Assembly: GCA_016932965.1 (NCBI GenBank) | Contig: JAFGBW010000260.1 | Location: 1 to 15,732, forward strand | DNA from: Candidatus Auribacterota bacterium | GTDB taxonomy: Bacteria; Auribacterota; JAFGBW01 | Reading direction: 5' to 3' | Length of the DNA stretch: 15,732 bases | In this document: piece by piece, positions 1,627 through 12,475 of the stretch | Numbering within the stretch: position 1 is the stretch's first letter | Layout of the letters: each line of letters opens with the position of its first letter | The notes under the pieces: generated by a model | Seen by the model: the letters and a program-made list of their open reading frames with translations, nothing else | What the model was told of the DNA's origin: nothing | The model's database searches: none | Made by a program: the position numbers and the translations under genes

Positions 1627-3309
1627 GTGAAATTAAAATGTGCAATTTACACCCGTGTCAGTACTGACGGCCAAGCCGAAGTTGAGTTCAATTCCTGTGA
1701 AGCACAGGAAAATAAAATAATGTCTTTCATAAACAGTCAGGAAGACATGCAAATTTATAAGACCTATTCTGACCCCGGATTCACGGGGGCAAACATGGAA
1801 AGACCAGCATTAAGGGAAATGTTCAAGGATATCCGTGAATATAAAATCAACCTTGTGATTGCTTATAAGATCGACCGCTTAACCAGAAGCCCGAAAGACT
1901 TTTATCAGATCATTGAATTCTTTGAAAAATATGAGGTATCTTTTATTTCCGTTACTGAACGCTTTGATACCTCCACACCTTCGGGACGCCTTTTGAGAAA
2001 TATCATGCTGACCTTCGCGCAATTCGAGCGAGAACTTACCGGGGAACGTGTCAGGGACAAACTTCTTGAACGGGCGCAAAAGGGATTTCCCAGCGGTGGA
2101 AATCGACCATTGGGGTACAGAAAAGAAAACAAAAGGCTTGTTGTGGATGAACAGGAGGCCAAGGCCGTAAAATATATTTTTAGCGAATACATCAAAAGAA
2201 CTCCATTGCCACAAATTGTCCAAGGATTAATCGATAAAAACTTAAAATCTAAAGAAGGAAAAATCATTGATAAAAGCCGTGTCTGCCATGCAATCGATAA
2301 TCCGGTTTGCACAGGAATTATAATGTTCAAGGGGAAGCCCTATAAAGGTATTCATGAACCTATCATTTCTGAAGAACTCTTTAACGCGGCACAGGAGATT
2401 AATCCTAAAAGGGCAAATGGAATCCGGCATTATAAAACAAATTATTTTGGAGGGCTAATACAATGCGCTGAATGCGGCTCGTTCATGACTCCCACGCATT
2501 CAGTAAAAATCAGAGAAGGAAAAAGAACAAAATATTATTATTACCGTTGCACATCCACTCATAAGAAAAGCTGGAGTGTCTGTACAACGAAACAGGTAAG
2601 TGCAGACAAACTTGAGGATTATATTGTAAGCAATCTTGAAAGAATCTCAATTGACGGAACTTACATAGAAAATTTACTTTTTAAAATGCATAACTCCGAG
2701 AGTTCGAAAAAACCGGGTAATTTTGGGGGTACACCCTTTGGTTCGGGATACGAACCTTCGGGGTTGTCCCCAAAATTACCCGAAATAACCCCCACCCAGG
2801 TCGGGCAAACTCTTGTCCATTTTGTTAAAGAGCTTAAAGAAAAAAAGGGCATTGAAAAACATCTCGCTGCAAAAAAATTCATTAAAAACATCATCTACTC
2901 AAAAGAAAAAATCACTATAAATCTTTTTCTTATAAATATTTGCAATTGCTGCGCACAGAGTGCTTGTCCTTCGGACTCCCTGCGGTCGCGGTCTCCGCTT
3001 CGATCCGGCACGCATATCGCCGCCGAACGGCGGCGCGATTTTTCGGGTTTTTCTGGGGATATTTTGCCGGTTTCAGACTCAAAAAAAACGCCGCAACTGC
3101 CTTCCGGCGCTGCGGCACGAAAATTAGAAGCGGAGAAAGAGGGATTGCTGCAGCCTTCCTGGCTTTGCCCTTTCGGGCTCCTTCGGAGCGCTGCTCCGCC
3201 TTCCTGGCTCCGCAGACGAACCCAAGGGTTCTCATCCCTCGCTATTTTAATAACGGAGAAAGAGGGATTCGAACCCTCGGAAGAGGCATACACCCCTTCA
3301 ACAGATTAG
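1627..3309 (+). CDS. serine recombinase (resolvase/integrase family), C-terminus abnormally extended
   Basis: Site-specific DNA recombinase of the large serine class. The N-terminal catalytic domain covers residues 4-150: YTRVSTDGQ with nucleophile S12 and R10, DPGFTG, YKIDRLTRS (R84, R87) and the long helix FAQFERELTGERVRD. A recombinase domain follows at about 160-260 (GNRPLGYR onwards). A zinc ribbon follows, with C280, C283, C308 and C319, then a helical segment to about residue 435. The GTG start is placed by AAGGGG 6 nt upstream. Recognisable protein ends near 435. The remaining 125 residues are low-complexity, cross a terminator-like hairpin at 3016-3043 and finish antisense inside tRNA-Ser, so the natural stop has probably been lost. 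Residues about 362-392 are encoded by a palindromic insert. It may have mobilised this island; whether it is still active is uncertain. Confidence 0.9.
   Translation: MKLKCAIYTRVSTDGQAEVEFNSCEAQENKIMSFINSQEDMQIYKTYSDPGFTGANMERPALREMFKDIREYKINLVIAYKIDRLTRSPKDFYQIIEFFEKYEVSFISVTERFDTSTPSGRLLRNIMLTFAQFERELTGERVRDKLLERAQKGFPSGGNRPLGYRKENKRLVVDEQEAKAVKYIFSEYIKRTPLPQIVQGLIDKNLKSKEGKIIDKSRVCHAIDNPVCTGIIMFKGKPYKGIHEPIISEELFNAAQEINPKRANGIRHYKTNYFGGLIQCAECGSFMTPTHSVKIREGKRTKYYYYRCTSTHKKSWSVCTTKQVSADKLEDYIVSNLERISIDGTYIENLLFKMHNSESSKKPGNFGGTPFGSGYEPSGLSPKLPEITPTQVGQTLVHFVKELKEKKGIEKHLAAKKFIKNIIYSKEKITINLFLINICNCCAQSACPSDSLRSRSPLRSGTHIAAERRRDFSGFSGDILPVSDSKKTPQLPSGAAARKLEAEKEGLLQPSWLCPFGLLRSAAPPSWLRRRTQGFSSLAILITEKEGFEPSEEAYTPSTD
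2714..2782. repeat. palindromic insert inside the recombinase frame
   Basis: Two 15-bp arms (2714-2728 and 2768-2782, CGGGTAATTTTGGGG and its exact complement) enclose 39 nt that itself contains a 6-bp stem (GGTTCG/CGAACC at 2740-2745 and 2751-2756). The whole unit stays in frame and encodes a Gly/Pro/Ser-rich linker just before the last helix. The decayed sister copy at the left edge loses homology at about the place where this element lies. It looks like a small protein-coding palindromic element, similar in principle to those described in Rickettsia, though not shown to be related. Confidence 0.6.
3016..3043 (+). terminator. intrinsic-terminator-like hairpin of the recombinase
   Basis: ATCGCCGCCG (3016-3025) pairs with CGGCGGCGCGAT (3028-3039), with one bulged C. 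This gives a very stable GC stem, followed at once by a run of five T (3039-3043). This is the textbook form of a factor-independent terminator on the recombinase strand. It lies inside the nominal reading frame, about 90 nt after recognisable recombinase sequence ends. Confidence 0.65.
3131..3146. repeat. displaced copy of the tRNA-Ser 3' end (possible attachment site)
   Basis: CGGAGAAAGAGGGATT here is identical to 3254-3269, the last 16 nt of tRNA-Ser (read on the opposite strand), and has the same orientation. The copies are 123 bp apart. Duplication of a tRNA 3' end is the usual scar of an integrating element, since the recombinase restores the tRNA from the copy it carries. I found no further copy at the left edge of the window. 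Confidence 0.5.
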
Positions 3310-3344
3310 CAATCTGCCGCCTTCAGCCACTCGGCCATTTCTCC
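3254..3344 (-). tRNA. tRNA-Ser (anticodon GCU)
   Basis: On the minus strand, the 7-bp acceptor stem GGAGAAA (3344-3338) pairs with TTTCTCC (3261-3255), and the discriminator is G (3254). The D-arm is GGCCGAGTGGCTGAAGGC. The anticodon loop TTGCTAA carries GCT (plus-strand 3308-3310). A long variable arm typical of class II tRNA-Ser follows, then the T-arm with GGTTCGAATCC. CCA is not encoded. A good promoter lies upstream. The serine recombinase frame ends inside this gene on the opposite strand. The 3' end is duplicated at 3131. Confidence 0.95.
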
Positions 3345-5468: not shown

Positions 5469-6455
5469 ATGAAAAGAAATTCCGTGAGGTCAGGGAACAA
5501 AGCCAATATGGTACAGTTAAGCATGCAAACCCTATCGTTTATTCTCATTTGCGGATTCGCATTCGCAGGTCCGCTCCGTGACCGGATTTTGGAACGCCGA
5601 AATGCTCATGAAGAAAATGAATATATGGAAGATGATGCTGATGCCAAAGGTCCAGCCTATTTGCCTGCGGAGATTCGCGTTGAGCGCGATGTTCCTTACG
5701 GCAGTGACGACAGACAAAAGTTCGACGTTTATCATATCCCCGGGAAATCAAAAAACGCGCCCGTCATCTTCATGGTGCATGGCGGCGCATGGATCATCGG
5801 CGATAAAACTTCAAGGGCTGTGGTCGAAAACAAGGTTTCCCGCTGGGTGCCAATAGGGTTTGTCTTCGTTTCAGCCAATTACCCCATGCTGCCGCAGGCT
5901 GACCCATTAGAGCAGGCGAAAAACGTGGTGCGCGCGATTGCAAAAGCCCAGGAAAAAGCCCCTTCCTGGGGCGCCGACCCGGCTAAATTCATCCTCATGG
6001 GACATTCGGCCGGAGCCCACCTGGTCTCACTCATAACCACTGACCCCCTTATTTCCTCAAGGGTCGTTTCAACCCTCTGGCTGGGTACAGTCTCCCTCGA
6101 CAGCGCGGCGCTTGATATCGTTCAGATCATGGGATCAAAACATTTCGGTTTCTATGACCGGGCGTTCGGATCTGATAAAAAATATTGGGAATCCGTCTCC
6201 CCCTTCCACACTCTGAAAAATAAAGGACAGCCCATCCTGCTTGTCTGCTCCTCCAGGCGTAAAGATTCCTGCTCCCAGGCGAATAAATTCGCCTTAAAAG
6301 CCAAATCACTCGGCATGAAGGCCTCCCTGCTCAAACAGGACCTCTCCCATAGAGATGTCAACCGCACTCTGGGTAAGGATTCTCCCTATACCCGGGCAGT
6401 CGAATCCTTCCTCTCCAGCCTCGATGAGACAACCGCTAAACTTTTGAATAGGTAA
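5469..6455 (+). CDS. secreted alpha/beta hydrolase (esterase/lipase-like, BD-FAE/kynurenine formamidase-like fold)
   Basis: A 328-residue serine hydrolase. HGGAW (residues 104-108) is the oxyanion-hole motif. GHSAGAH (178-184) holds the nucleophile S180. The triad is plausibly completed by D266 (SSRRKDS) and H294 (LSHRD). The layout matches small carboxylesterases of the HGG-type family; the substrate cannot be told. The N-terminus has a hydrophobic signal (LSFILICGFAFA) ending before residue 34, so export is likely. The first ATG (5469) has no ribosome site. The ATG at residue 14 (5508), behind an AGGG, or the one at residue 19 would give a more normal signal peptide. It is the last gene of the plus-strand run before a convergent hairpin. 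Confidence 0.85.
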   Translation: MKRNSVRSGNKANMVQLSMQTLSFILICGFAFAGPLRDRILERRNAHEENEYMEDDADAKGPAYLPAEIRVERDVPYGSDDRQKFDVYHIPGKSKNAPVIFMVHGGAWIIGDKTSRAVVENKVSRWVPIGFVFVSANYPMLPQADPLEQAKNVVRAIAKAQEKAPSWGADPAKFILMGHSAGAHLVSLITTDPLISSRVVSTLWLGTVSLDSAALDIVQIMGSKHFGFYDRAFGSDKKYWESVSPFHTLKNKGQPILLVCSSRRKDSCSQANKFALKAKSLGMKASLLKQDLSHRDVNRTLGKDSPYTRAVESFLSSLDETTAKLLNR

Positions 6456-6472
6456 AATGAAAGTGGAGAGAT

Positions 6473-6510
6473 GCGGGGAAATCTTTTTTAAAGAAAGAAG
6501 GTTTTTCCGC
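6473..6510. terminator. hairpin between convergent hydrolase and nadC genes
   Basis: GCGGGGAAA (6473-6481) pairs with TTTTTCCGC (6502-6510) with two G-U pairs. The loop region can extend the pairing through TCTTT/AAAGA. It sits 17 nt after the hydrolase stop and 6 nt before the nadC stop (opposite strand), the expected place for a shared terminator. T-rich sequence lies within the loop and beside the stem. Confidence 0.45.
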
Positions 6511-6515
6511 ACTTC

Positions 6516-7370
6516 TTAATCCCTGGCAATCAACAGCGACAAATCCGCGGATTTGAAGGAATGGGTCAGAGCTCCGACGGAGATGTAATCCACACCGGGG
6601 AGGGCGTAGGAACGGATGTTGTTGAGAGTGATCCCGCCCGAAACTTCGATTTTGGCCCGTTTGCGGATGATTTTTACCGTTTCTTTAATTTCTTCACAGC
6701 TCATGTTGTCCAGCAGGATGATGTCCGCTCCGGATTCACAGGCTTCCTCCGCCTGAGTGAATTTTTGTATTTCCACCTCGATCTTCAGCTTCGGATATTT
6801 TTTCCGGCATTTCCGGACCGCGCGAAAAATGTATCCATCCCCTTTTCTGGCTTCAATGGCAAGATGATTCTCTTTTAACAGCACCATGTCAGACAGGCCG
6901 AAACGATGATTGGTCCCCCCGCCGGTCATGACCGCGTACTTTTCAAACCGCCTCATTCCCGGTGCGGTTTTCCGGGTATCTAAAATGATGGTTCCGGTGC
7001 CTTTAACTGCGTCAACATACGACCTTGTCTGTGTGGCAATTCCGCACAAACGCTGAAAAATGTTCAAAACCGATCGTTCCGCCTCTAAAATGGCTTTGGT
7101 AGGGCCTTTCCCTGAAAGAAAAAGATCGTTCTTCTTCAGCCAGATCCCGTCCCTGGAAACATGCCGAAAAATAAATTTTGAACTCAATGATTTGAACGAG
7201 GCTTCGGCTAAAGCCGCGCCGCAGGAAATGATCCGCTCCTTGGCAATGATCCGGAATGAGGAAATATCCCCTTCCGGCACCACTGATTCGGAGGTCACGT
7301 CCTTTCCGGGACAGTCCTCCTGAACAGCCATGCGGAACAGATTGCGAATGTCTTGTACGGTCGGTTTCAT
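6516..7370 (-). CDS. nadC: quinolinate phosphoribosyltransferase (nicotinate-nucleotide pyrophosphorylase, carboxylating)
   Basis: Converts quinolinate and PRPP to nicotinate mononucleotide, CO2 and PPi in de novo NAD synthesis; cytosolic. It has about 284 residues, the family's normal length. Recognisable motifs in order: EDCPGKDVT, ERSVLNIFQRLCGIATQTR, LDTRKTAPGMR, GGGTNHRFGLSDMVLLKENH, EVEIQKFTQA, DIILLDNMS and the closing EVSGGI plus YISVGALTHS, which forms the phosphate site of the TIM-like barrel. I chose the ATG at 7370; a TTG two codons upstream (7376) is also open. Neither has a clear ribosome site. The gene starts about 25 nt after tRNA-Lys on the same strand, with no visible terminator between, so tRNA and mRNA may share a transcript. 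nadA and nadB are not in the window. Confidence 0.97.
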   Translation of the reverse strand: MKPTVQDIRNLFRMAVQEDCPGKDVTSESVVPEGDISSFRIIAKERIISCGAALAEASFKSLSSKFIFRHVSRDGIWLKKNDLFLSGKGPTKAILEAERSVLNIFQRLCGIATQTRSYVDAVKGTGTIILDTRKTAPGMRRFEKYAVMTGGGTNHRFGLSDMVLLKENHLAIEARKGDGYIFRAVRKCRKKYPKLKIEVEIQKFTQAEEACESGADIILLDNMSCEEIKETVKIIRKRAKIEVSGGITLNNIRSYALPGVDYISVGALTHSFKSADLSLLIARD

Positions 7371-7395
7371 AGACAACTGCTTCAGAAATAGAAAA

Positions 7396-8862: not shown

Positions 8863-9747
8863 ATGAAAGGTATTATTCTAGCAGGCGGGTCCGGCACCCG
8901 GCTTTATCCTATTACAAAAATTCTTAGCAAGCAATTGCTCCCTATTTATGACAAACCCATGATCTATTATCCCCTTTCCATTTTGATGCTCGCAGGAATC
9001 CGGGAAATTCTGATCATTTCCACCCCTTCGGACCTGCCCTTTTACAAGAACCTCCTCGGAGACGGTTCCCAGCTGGGCATGTCTTTTTCCTATGCCGAGC
9101 AGCCCCGTCCTGAAGGATTGGCCCAGGCTTTCATTATTGGAAAAAATTTCATCGGAAAAGACGCTGTCTCATTGATTCTGGGAGACAATATCTTCTATGG
9201 CCAGGGATTGTCTGAAATCCTGAAAAACGCCGTCCGCCTTGAAAAAGGAGGGCTCATTTTCGGTTATCCGGTGAAAGATCCTGAACGTTACGGAGTCGTG
9301 GAGTTCGATTCCACCCATCATGTCATCGGCATTGAAGAAAAACCCTCCAACCCCAAATCCAAATATGCTGTTCCGGGATTGTATTTCTACGACAACCAGG
9401 TCATGGAGATCGCACAAAATCTGAAACCCTCCCCCAGGGGCGAACTGGAAATCACCGATGTCAATCTCGTTTACCTTAAACACAGAGAATTGAAAGTGCA
9501 GTTGCTGGGAAGAGGATTTGCCTGGCTGGATACCGGCACTATTGAATCCTTCCAGCAGGCCAGCCGGTTCGTCCAGTCCATCCAGGAAAGACAGGGCCTT
9601 AAAATCGCCTGTATCGAGGAAATCGCTTTCCATGCAGGATACATCTCATGTGAACAGCTTAAAAAACTCTCCCAGCCCATGCTCCAGAATGAATACGGCC
9701 GCTACCTCATGGAAATCGCCGACGAAGATCCTCTCGGGCTGCCTTAA
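8863..9747 (+). CDS. rmlA: glucose-1-phosphate thymidylyltransferase
   Basis: Joins glucose-1-phosphate and dTTP to give dTDP-glucose, the first step of dTDP-rhamnose and related sugars for surface polysaccharides; cytosolic. 294 residues, the standard length. The nucleotide site is at the N-terminus: [18 protein letters not shown]. It is followed by [25 protein letters not shown] (D108, metal), [17 protein letters not shown] (sugar-phosphate binding), GLYFYDN, the ELEITDVN loop and AWLDTGT (D223 near the second metal site). The ATG is placed by AAGGGA 8 nt upstream. The rest of the rml pathway (B, C, D) is not adjacent, so the gene stands alone here, with its own promoter and a hairpin right after the stop. 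Confidence 0.97.
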
Positions 9748-9759
9748 GAATTAAGAATA

Positions 9760-9804
9760 CTGAAGGCATACTTTTCTTTTAAAAAAAGAAAAGTATGCCT
9801 TCAG
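9760..9804. repeat. hairpin 1: perfect 21-bp stem, 3-nt loop
   Basis: Arms 9760-9780 and 9784-9804 are exact complements around an AAA loop. The outer half is mixed sequence (CTGAAGGCATAC), the inner half T/C-rich. It begins 12 nt after the rmlA stop, so it may end rmlA transcription or protect the mRNA 3' end, but no T-run follows. Confidence 0.85.
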
Positions 9805-9829
9805 ACTTCCTTTCAAAAGAAAACCATCC

Positions 9830-9870
9830 CCGCCTTTCATTTTTCTTGAAGCAAGAAAAATGAAAGGCGG
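9830..9870. repeat. hairpin 2: perfect 19-bp stem, 3-nt loop
   Basis: Arms 9830-9848 and 9852-9870 are exact complements around AAG. The outer part is CCGCCTTTC, the inner part T-rich, the same plan as hairpin 1 but a different sequence. Confidence 0.85.
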
Positions 9871-9924
9871 AAACAGTCTTTTAAAATAATCATGGATATT
9901 ATTCCTTCTGATTAAAAACTGTTT
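9871..9924. repeat. hairpin 3: 13-bp stem with one bulge, long loop
   Basis: AAACAGTCTTTTAA (9871-9884) pairs with TTAAAAACTGTTT (9912-9924), leaving one unpaired base. It abuts hairpin 2 directly, with no spacer base. Confidence 0.65.
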
Positions 9925-10043
9925 AACTTAAATACCTGATCCAGATAAAAAAATTCCAACACATCACTCCCCCAGATGATATTGCAATGGATTTCTATTC
10001 GCAGGGATCAAGAATTGCTGAATAATTTAAAACAATATAGTTC

Positions 10044-10078
10044 CGCATTCATGGAAACAAAATGTTCCCATGAATGCG
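10044..10078. repeat. hairpin 4: 16-bp stem with one mismatch, 3-nt loop
   Basis: CGCATTCATGGAAACA (10044-10059) faces TGTTCCCATGAATGCG (10063-10078), 15 of 16 positions paired, with an AAA loop. A T-run (TTTTTT) lies about 9 nt beyond on the plus strand. Confidence 0.8.
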
Positions 10079-10175
10079 CCAATAAAATTTTTTGTGAGCG
10101 AAGACAAGGATGTCGGCGCTTGGTGACCGAAGAGAACCCTCAAGGGCAAGGCCACGATGGCCGCGACAGAAGGGT

Positions 10176-10209
10176 ACGGGAAAAACTCTTTTATAAAAAG
10201 TTTTCCCGT
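10176..10209 (-). terminator. hairpin 5, probable aconitase terminator
   Basis: ACGGGAAAA and TTTTCCCGT form a 9-bp outer stem; CTTTT/AAAAG continue it around an ATA loop, with a 3-nt bulge. It starts 5 nt after the aconitase stop on the minus strand. That position argues for a terminator or 3'-end-stabilising role, although only the stem itself provides the U-rich part. Confidence 0.5.
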
Positions 10210-10213
10210 TCTG

Positions 10214-12475
10214 CTATCCCTTTTCCAAAGATTTCATATGGTTTAAAGCCGAACCGGCTTTGAACCAGTCGATCTGGTTTTCAGAATAGGAGTGAACCAG
10301 GGACACGGTCTCCTTTGCACCGTCTGAATGCATGATTTCCAGGGTAAGGGGCTGTCCGGGTTTGAAATGATGAAGACCGCAAATGGTCAGGATATCGTCT
10401 TCCCGGATACGTTCGTAATCTTCAGGTTCAGCAAAGGTGGCCACCAGGACCCCCTGTTTTTTGAGGTTGGTTTCAGCTATCCGGGCAAACGAACGCGCCA
10501 GAACCGCCCTGCATCCCAGGAATCTGGGTTCCATGGCCGCGTGCTCACGGGATGAACCTTCACCGTAATTCGTGTCCCCGATCGCAATCCAGTTCCTTCC
10601 CTTTTCCCGGTACATCCGGGCTGTTTTTGAAAAAACCTGCCCGGTTTCACCGCTCAAGATATTTTTGCCCTTTCCTGTGTCACCGGTAAAGGCATTCACC
10701 GCTCCCAGGAATAAATTGTCTGAAATCCTGTCCAGATGCCCCCGGTATTTCAACCATTTCCCTGCCGGAGAAATATGGTCGGTTGTGCATTTACCCTTCA
10801 CCTTGACCAGCACAAAACAATCCTGAATCTCGTCTCTCTGGTCCCAGGGAAGAAAAGGTTCAAGCAGTTGAAGACGCTCTGAAGCAGGGTTGATTTCAAT
10901 ACGGATATTTTTGCTTTCTTTTAATGGTTCAGGTTTCTTCTCTTCCTCAATGAAACCCTTTGGCGGCAGTTCTTCTCCGCAGGGGGGATTCAAAATAAAC
11001 GACTGGCCGGAAGACAAGCTCAATGAGTCTGTCAAAGGATTGAAATCCATTCGTCCGCTGACAGCAAAAGCTGTGGCTAATTCCGGCGAAGTAATAAAAG
11101 CAAGCGTAACTGGATTCCCGTCGTTCCTTGCCCTGAAATTGCGGTTGAATGTCGTCACAATGCTGTTGGGGACCTCCTGTTTAAAATCCTGCCTGTCCCA
11201 TTGACCTATGCAGGGGCCGCAGGAATTGCTGAGAACAACGGCCCCGAAATCCGTGAATATCTTCAGAATTCCATCCCGATCAAGGGTGGCCCGGATCCGC
11301 TCTGATCCGGGGGAAATATACAGGGCTGATTTTGATTTCAGACCTTTTTCCATGGCCTGCTTCATGACAGAAGCGGCACGGCTCAAGTCTTCATATGAAG
11401 AATTGGTACAGGACCCGATCAAAACGGCTCTGGATTCGGCCGGGTATTTTTTCTCAGAAATTTCTTTTCTGAATTCCGTGATGGTCCGGTCCAAATCCGG
11501 CGTGAACGGCCCGACCAGATGCGGTTCCAGAGCATCCAGAGCTATTTCAATGACCTGGTCATAATACTGACCGGGATTGTTGTAGACCTCTTCATCCGCT
11601 CTTAAATTGGAGCTAAAAGAACGCGCCAAACCAGCAGCGTCCTTTCGGCCCGTAGCTTCCAGATACAGCGCCATTTTTTCATCATAAGGAAATACAGATG
11701 CAGTGGCACCCACTTCAGCGCCCATGTTTGTGATGGTGGATTTGCCCGTTGCGGAAAGAGAGGAGCAACCCTGCCCGAAATATTCGATCACACACCCGGT
11801 CCCGCCTTTGACAGTCAATAGCCCGGCCAGTTTTAAAATCACATCCTTTGCCGAGGCCCAGCCGGACAGAGTTCCTGTGAGTTTTACTCCGATCAATTTC
11901 GGCCATCGCAGTTCCCAACTCATTCCTGCCATCACGTCCGATACATCCGCGCCTCCCACCCCTATCGCCATCATACCGAGTCCCCCGGCATTCGGCGTGT
12001 GCGAATCCGACCCGATCATCAAACCCCCTGGAAAAGCGTAATTTTCAAAAATGATCTGATGAATGATCCCTGAGCCGGGTCCCCAAAAATCAATCCCGTA
12101 CTTAAAACAAACCGAAGAAAGAAAATCATAAACTTCCCTGTTTGTGAGCAAAGCTGCTTTGAGGTCCTTTTCCGCGCCGGATCTAGCCACGATCAAATGA
12201 TCGCAATGCACTGTTGCCGGCACCATGGTTTTATCCTTTCCGGAGAGCATAAACTGGAGCAGGGCCATCTGCGCAGTGGCGTCCTGCATGGCCACCCGGT
12301 CCGGATAAAGATGAACATAAGTTTTCCCCCTCTGTGGGATATGAGAAAGTGACTTGTCCAAATGGGAAAACAGAATCTTTTCAGTTAAAGACAAGGGAAT
12401 GCCTGTCAGACTTCTCGCTTCAGCCAGGCGACATTCCATTTTTGAATAAACATTTTCAATGATACGGCTGTTCAT
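10214..12475 (-). CDS. acn: aconitate hydratase, mitochondrial-type
   Basis: Interconverts citrate and isocitrate via cis-aconitate (TCA cycle); a cytosolic [4Fe-4S] enzyme. 753 residues, the normal length of the mitochondrial-type aconitase subfamily rather than the roughly 900-residue AcnA. Cluster ligands are visible: C356 in IGSCTNS, and C419 and C422 in NSCGPCIGQW. Other active-site signatures are MVPATVHCDHLI, IGSDSHTPNAGGLG (157-160), NFRARND, KCTTDHISPAGKW and GEGSSREHAA (S642-H645). The C-terminal swivel domain starts near residue 560. The ATG at 12475 was chosen because it completes the N-terminal helix; a strong ribosome site is not obvious. It stands alone, 197 nt after the kinase gene on the same strand. 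Confidence 0.97.
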   Translation of the reverse strand: MNSRIIENVYSKMECRLAEARSLTGIPLSLTEKILFSHLDKSLSHIPQRGKTYVHLYPDRVAMQDATAQMALLQFMLSGKDKTMVPATVHCDHLIVARSGAEKDLKAALLTNREVYDFLSSVCFKYGIDFWGPGSGIIHQIIFENYAFPGGLMIGSDSHTPNAGGLGMMAIGVGGADVSDVMAGMSWELRWPKLIGVKLTGTLSGWASAKDVILKLAGLLTVKGGTGCVIEYFGQGCSSLSATGKSTITNMGAEVGATASVFPYDEKMALYLEATGRKDAAGLARSFSSNLRADEEVYNNPGQYYDQVIEIALDALEPHLVGPFTPDLDRTITEFRKEISEKKYPAESRAVLIGSCTNSSYEDLSRAASVMKQAMEKGLKSKSALYISPGSERIRATLDRDGILKIFTDFGAVVLSNSCGPCIGQWDRQDFKQEVPNSIVTTFNRNFRARNDGNPVTLAFITSPELATAFAVSGRMDFNPLTDSLSLSSGQSFILNPPCGEELPPKGFIEEEKKPEPLKESKNIRIEINPASERLQLLEPFLPWDQRDEIQDCFVLVKVKGKCTTDHISPAGKWLKYRGHLDRISDNLFLGAVNAFTGDTGKGKNILSGETGQVFSKTARMYREKGRNWIAIGDTNYGEGSSREHAAMEPRFLGCRAVLARSFARIAETNLKKQGVLVATFAEPEDYERIREDDILTICGLHHFKPGQPLTLEIMHSDGAKETVSLVHSYSENQIDWFKAGSALNHMKSLEKG

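Follow-up and report, generated by a model that had tools for sequence, protein, structure and literature searches.

The convergent spacer described here belongs to a stretch of 15,732 nucleotides of contig JAFGBW010000260.1 of Candidatus Auribacterota bacterium, which is referred to as the window throughout. The spacer separates two genes, an NTP-transferase/RfbA-like one whose stop is at 9747 and an aconitase gene whose stop is at 10214, and it carries five long hairpins within 450 nt, all of them present as given in a preliminary description, with loops of 3 nt in four of the five (Table 1). Such an array is far beyond chance; folded as single-stranded DNA, the 471-nt region reaches a z-score of -13.7 against 100 dinucleotide shuffles. 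It is, however, no local oddity, since four of the five hairpins fall into two units of a dispersed repeat family. The earlier suggestion of a nest of small palindromic repeats was thus apt, the spacer holding two units of paired hairpins together with a REP-like insertion, while the remark that the hairpins lack a common sequence needs correction, because their sequence is shared with other copies in the genome at 75-94% identity. The type I unit (9760-9870) and the type II unit (10209-10044) face each other, an arrangement also seen on other contigs; in the copies read, the interiors between such facing units are unlike one another.

Table 1. Features of the convergent spacer and of a second family site (positions in the window)
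Feature	Position	Arms	Strand	Description
Type I unit, outer palindrome (stem 1)	9760-9804	9760-9780/9784-9804	+	perfect 21-bp arms; loop AAA; the stop of ORF 8863-9747 is 12 nt away
Type I conserved spacer	9805-9829		+	acttcctttcaaaagaaaaccatcc; from alignment A1 and the unit list
Type I unit, inner palindrome (stem 2)	9830-9870	9830-9848/9852-9870	+	19 bp, perfect arms, loop AAG
One-off bulged stem within the composite (stem 3)	9871-9924	9871-9884/9912-9924		13 bp, 1-nt bulge, large loop; from the DNA fold; outside the family matches and in no repeated unit
Type II unit, inner palindrome (stem 4)	10044-10078	10044-10059/10063-10078	-	one mismatch in 16 positions; loop AAA
Type II spacer, inner part	10079-10094		-	ccaataaaattttttg on the + strand
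REP-like core, 73 bp	10095-10167		+	contains mini-hairpins GACaaggatGTC and GGCCacgatGGCC; interrupts the type II spacer, flanked by TTTTTTG and AGAAGGG; from interrupted versus uninterrupted copies
Type II spacer, outer part	10168-10175		-	agaagggt on the + strand
Type II unit, outer palindrome (stem 5)	10176-10209	10176-10192/10196-10209	-	9+5 bp, bulge of 3 nt, loop ATA; the stop of the aconitase ORF 10214-12475 (-) is 4 nt away
Second type II outer palindrome of the window, lone and degenerate	6472-6512			match C46:6457-6537, E=0.0036; between ORF 5469-6455 (+) and ORF 6516-7376 (-)

Elsewhere in the window, the palindrome at 6472-6512 constitutes a second family site, flanked by the stop codons of an esterase-like and a nadC-like gene. 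A large serine recombinase ORF with Resolvase, Recombinase and zinc-ribbon domains (1627-3344) overlaps with its end a tRNA-Ser gene (3254-3344), possibly the remnant or the edge of an integrative element.

When used as a query, the spacer gave 59 matches in its own genome (3.14 Mb in 300 contigs, 92.6% complete) and none in 28 relatives, the nearest of which belong to the same order. Genome-wide statistics were drawn from fetched stretches, many of which had been selected for such matches. A scan for stems of at least 15 bp, with loops of up to 8 nt and at most one mismatch, found 85 in 458 kb of 41 contigs of this genome, many of them chosen for matches, versus none in a shuffled copy; contigs of the same genome picked blind yielded one stem in 103 kb, and two genomes of the same order four in 168 kb and one in 68 kb, respectively. 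Such hairpins are therefore not at background level, as the refutation proposed in the preliminary description would have required, but strongly enriched, and the enrichment is carried by one repeat family. An assembly artefact, which had been named as a possible refutation of the array, is excluded by dozens of non-identical copies across many contigs.

Most hairpins of at least 15 bp occur in pairs, with 20-27 nt (about 24 nt) between the partners. Such a pair is termed a "unit" here and is composed of an outer palindrome, a conserved spacer of about 24 nt (CCTTTTcAAAAAA-like), and an inner palindrome. Type I units follow the layout TGAAGGGAAACTTTTCTTTT... / cttcctttcaaaagaaaa / ...GATTTTTCTTG-AAA, type II units the layout TGCGGGAAAAACTTTTTTAT... 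/ cccttttcaaaaaactttattgg / CGCTTTCATGGGAACA..., and a third outer-palindrome variant, CGCGGAAAAACCTTTATGAAT, is followed by the spacer ccttttccaaacacttttattgg. Covariance models (R1 and R2) detect about 80 units in this genome and none in other genomes of the phylum (43 genomes for the type II model, 23 of those for the type I model). Weak model matches in two further genomes (E 2e-4 or worse) look like generic long hairpins. Many arms have a single occurrence within the sequence searched, and certain inner arms show no relationship to any other arm; for a 31-bp inner arm of this kind, in L125, the genome holds no second copy, only chance-level matches of about 20 nt. Neighbouring copies are locally similar to a mild degree only (0.60 versus 0.52, permutation p=0.013).

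With regard to genomic placement, simple codon-bias gene calls made for this work on the fetched contigs put none of 75 units inside a gene. Units are no speciality of convergent spacers: the unit-carrying spacers comprise 39 between tandem genes, 17 convergent and 6 divergent ones, with divergent spacers depleted (p=0.001). The units are polar: of 72 outer hairpins, 50 point towards a 3' end, and 47 of these 50 lie between -13 and +45 nt from the stop codon (median 18.5). Among solo units, the side nearer to the coding sequence is the outer one in 40 of 46 (p=3e-7), and solo units in tandem spacers face the stop of the upstream gene at a ratio of 22:7 (p=0.008); some units are found directly upstream of start codons. 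This polarity towards stop codons could have its cause in function rather than in tolerance.

The main rival to the view of these units as tolerated repeats takes up exactly this point. It holds that they are functional transcript 3'-end elements and spread as a supply of terminators, with an outer hairpin that acts in both directions, halting RNA polymerase or capping the 3' ends of mRNA. The proximity of the outer hairpin to stop codons (at most 45 nt in 47 of the 50 3'-facing units), the 22:7 bias and the depletion of divergent spacers speak for this reading, and the convergent spacer of the window is mostly composed of units, with the type II hairpin framed by AAAAGGG...CCCTTTTC in the manner of a bidirectional terminator. 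The U-tract of intrinsic terminators is, however, missing: reading away from the gene, at least six T within the 8 nt past the outer hairpin occur in only 1 of 68 units, so that canonical intrinsic termination is unlikely. Strong T-tails are rare elsewhere in this genome, too, being present at only 5 of 130 convergent 3' ends that lack a unit, and a different signal may take their place; on the other hand, the units just upstream of start codons and the lack of an enrichment of G-T pairs, which are harmless in RNA, speak against a role at transcript ends. On balance, we regard this reading as doubtful. The array may still be the "double-ended transcription barrier" of the preliminary description, with which the placement after stop codons agrees, whereas the absence of U-tracts does not.

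The arms of the palindromes covary extensively. In 15 aligned type I units (alignment A1), 28 of 39 pairs have undergone two-sided changes, amounting to 126 two-sided compensatory cells versus three one-sided ones (all U-G). The covariation score of 0.598 compares with 0.147 after shuffling and was reached by none of 500 shuffles; sliding the partners by 1-3 columns lets it fall to about 0.1 and abolishes the signal. Ten type II units (alignment A3) display 23 two-sided cells and no one-sided one. As the units in both alignments came from a strict Watson-Crick scan, pairs were counted again in 82 model-found units, giving 2731 Watson-Crick, 27 G-T, 36 A-C and 48 other pairs. G-T is not preferred over A-C, and neither strand shows the wobble tolerance typical of RNA.

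The preliminary description had also considered a hairpin-RNA source, an idea that loses ground both by this result, with G-T tolerated no more than A-C on either strand, and by the lack of any Rfam family at gathering score. The 49 Rfam matches up to E=1 are all under the gathering scores and mostly concern eukaryotic miRNA and snoRNA models, which are drawn by any long hairpin.

Within a hairpin, the arms are identical to each other at a mean of 96% and a median of 100%, against 84% for the nearest arm of any other copy (114 hairpins versus 13). The two neighbouring copies on contig C202 share the same 22-bp outer arms, and their loops, TGC and GCA, are reverse complements of each other. Arms that are unique to each copy yet matching, about 150 two-sided versus three one-sided changes, and no excess of G-T indicate old palindromes whose perfection is actively maintained at the level of DNA. 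Of the "recent formation or active maintenance" read earlier from the perfect arms, maintenance is therefore the part that stands, while recent formation does not agree with copies that are widely diverged and have kept their pairing.

Template switching between the arms is the most likely way in which such perfection would be maintained. Diverged unique arms, unrelated inner arms and the loop inversion on C202 together make up the signature expected of this process (PMC8794818). Quasipalindrome correction and template-switch mutations likewise render arms identical by the copying of one of them, with paired multi-base changes and loop inversion; as a mutation process, however, they have mainly been described from single sites or RNA genes, and here the process would act on an entire repeat family (PMC8794818, PMC7202029). 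Two observations on the enzyme inventory touch on this mechanism. The genome encodes the large subunit of exonuclease VII, in E. coli a suppressor of quasipalindrome mutations, and its presence is counted against arm copying as the means of maintenance. The hairpin nuclease SbcD (TIGR00619) was not found in this 92.6% complete genome, and it is present in 13 of 14 control genomes; as a lead only, its absence may be linked to the tolerance of palindromes, or to the incompleteness of the bin.

The observed family, the anatomy of its units, their placement and polarity, the two-sided covariation without G-T excess and the nested insertion into palindromes are probably best accounted for by a mosaic of non-autonomous repeats that are tolerated at gene ends and whose arms are kept perfect by arm copying. 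The spacer would, accordingly, be a mosaic of dispersed non-coding palindromic repeats, in which a type I unit adjoins the end of one convergent gene and an inverse type II unit that of the other, while a younger REP-like element has entered the type II spacer. The units may represent an originally mobile family specific to this lineage that spread into intergenic spacers through copying by some activity. They would have been retained mainly where promoters remained unharmed, with the outer hairpin beside the coding end and mostly just past stop codons, and their effect there would be near-neutral or a mild one on 3' ends. One arm would be copied onto the other in the course of replication (template switching or quasipalindrome correction), rather than the pairing being upheld by selection on RNA, so that pairing persists while the sequence drifts.

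As to the route of spreading, a MITE would have terminal inverted repeats, a target duplication and a related autonomous element; the composites have inverted ends but unlike interiors, no target duplication is evident around them by eye, and no autonomous copy was seen. For a unit itself, neither an empty site nor a target duplication came to light. The genome gave no match to Y1_Tnp (PF01797; RAYT/Y1 transposase), with E. coli as a positive control, nor to reverse transcriptases (PF00078; retron, group II intron, or DGR), at 92.6% completeness in both cases. A phage or plasmid origin was rejected, since there is no DNA match of the whole spacer to phages or of the core to plasmids, and viral contigs likewise contain nothing that matches the patterns exactly. 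On contig C85 (L125 3735-5263), a tyrosine recombinase gene, XerC-like by reading, is situated between complete type I plus type II composites on both sides; this is probably due to chance, but the enzyme is a candidate for hairpin recognition.

Among known systems, the closest parallel is provided by the REP, BIME and REPIN elements of proteobacteria and others, which are short extragenic palindromes in tens to hundreds of copies, with inverted pairs, conserved spacers, mosaics and compensatory stem changes (PMC3116915, PMC3733652). The units might accordingly be members of this class, mobilised in trans by a RAYT transposase, and they share with it the extragenic location, palindromic nature, copy numbers in the tens, mosaic structure and inverted pairing; compensatory changes are found in REPINs, too (PMC3116915), and the core resembles a REP doublet that enters palindromes without evident duplication. 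However, a REP is recognised by a GTAG or CGTC tag at one end and a stem of 5-13 bp in which GT pairs are common (PMC3733652), whereas the consensus of the units (alignments A1 and A3) lacks the tag and their stems measure mostly 15-31 bp, do not conserve the arm sequence and show no G-T tolerance. Each unit, moreover, comprises two complete hairpins, and Y1_Tnp was not found in the genome despite the positive control. We therefore consider membership improbable; the units disagree with REPs in the tag, the length of the stem, the RAYT and the tolerance of G-T, and they are rather a RAYT-less REP/BIME-like variant that works like REPs. REP-like palindromic repeats at gene ends are, thus, seen here in a genome where the RAYT transposase was not found.

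A further parallel is offered by the double-hairpin, or repetitive hairpin-forming, elements of mitochondrial DNA, as they are described at second hand (Paquin 2000, as cited in PMC2800124). According to that description, these lineage-restricted, intergenic repeats also consist of two adjacent hairpins and are thought to be mobile without flanking duplications. The present units differ, by description and not by sequence, in being bacterial-chromosomal, in their conserved 24-nt spacer, in their polarity towards coding sequences, and in some inner arms of unrelated sequence.

It has also to be considered whether the outer hairpin and the spacer are selected to form an intrastrand DNA triplex (GGGAAAA / TTTTCCC / CCCTTTT, with a mirror third strand). 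Intrastrand triplex repeats are known from bacteria (PMC4666352), and the length of the C-run in the type II spacer tracks that of the G-run in the outer-hairpin arm (Spearman 0.81, n=45), a correlation that stems partly from the common ancestry of a few subfamilies. Type I units obey the rule only loosely, and the stem base (TGC/GCA) would have to be opened or spanned; selection for a triplex is regarded as highly improbable. The known PIT/BoxC motifs resemble the units in being repeated, intergenic hairpins followed by a mirror tract, but they are of the G/C-rich purine type with 9-nt tracts, while the units have a short pyrimidine tract beside a long palindrome (PMC4666352).

The REP-like core measures 73-78 bp and occurs in seven full or nearly full copies in the genome. 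The core is located in the type II spacer, flanked by TTTTTTG and A(A/G)AAGGG, on C46, C132 and C202, and in the loop of an outer hairpin (CTTTTTTATAA / core / AAAAG) on C214, C154 (twice) and C150, and the copy on C58 is cut off by the contig end. No duplication is evident at the insertions into palindromes. On C150, the core itself is split by a palindromic MITE-like insert of about 280 bp with repeated GTAAG, which sits in the mini-hairpin CCCgtaaGGG of that core; the insert has one further copy, on C149. As both the core and the MITE-like insert reside within palindromes, palindromes appear to attract further elements.

Long perfect palindromes should be unstable, and it is a long-standing question how compensatory change can leave stems perfect. 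The family offers about 80 natural replicates in one genome, with about 150 two-sided versus three one-sided changes among the aligned units, hardly any wobble intermediates and a clean loop inversion in at least one case, rendering maintenance by template switching directly testable. Tentatively, the units may even stand for a bacterial repeat class that inherits base pairing and not sequence, with paired palindromes at gene ends in a lineage where SbcD was not found, arms rewritten as a whole by template switching, an outer hairpin that a third mirror tract makes capable of forming a triplex, and palindromes on which further elements land.

The MITE-like element of about 280 bp, at L140 3600-4040 and L133 6700-6980, carries repeated GTAAG along its edges and a 20-bp palindrome (TATTGAGACATGTTTATTTG) in its centre. 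Another REP-like family, CGAAGCCAGGATGGC...GGGCAAGGGCACGATGCCCGCAGTCC, whose plan is related to that of the core of the window, is found at L117 (~10020-10085), L142 (~160-225), and L213 (~1065-1140).
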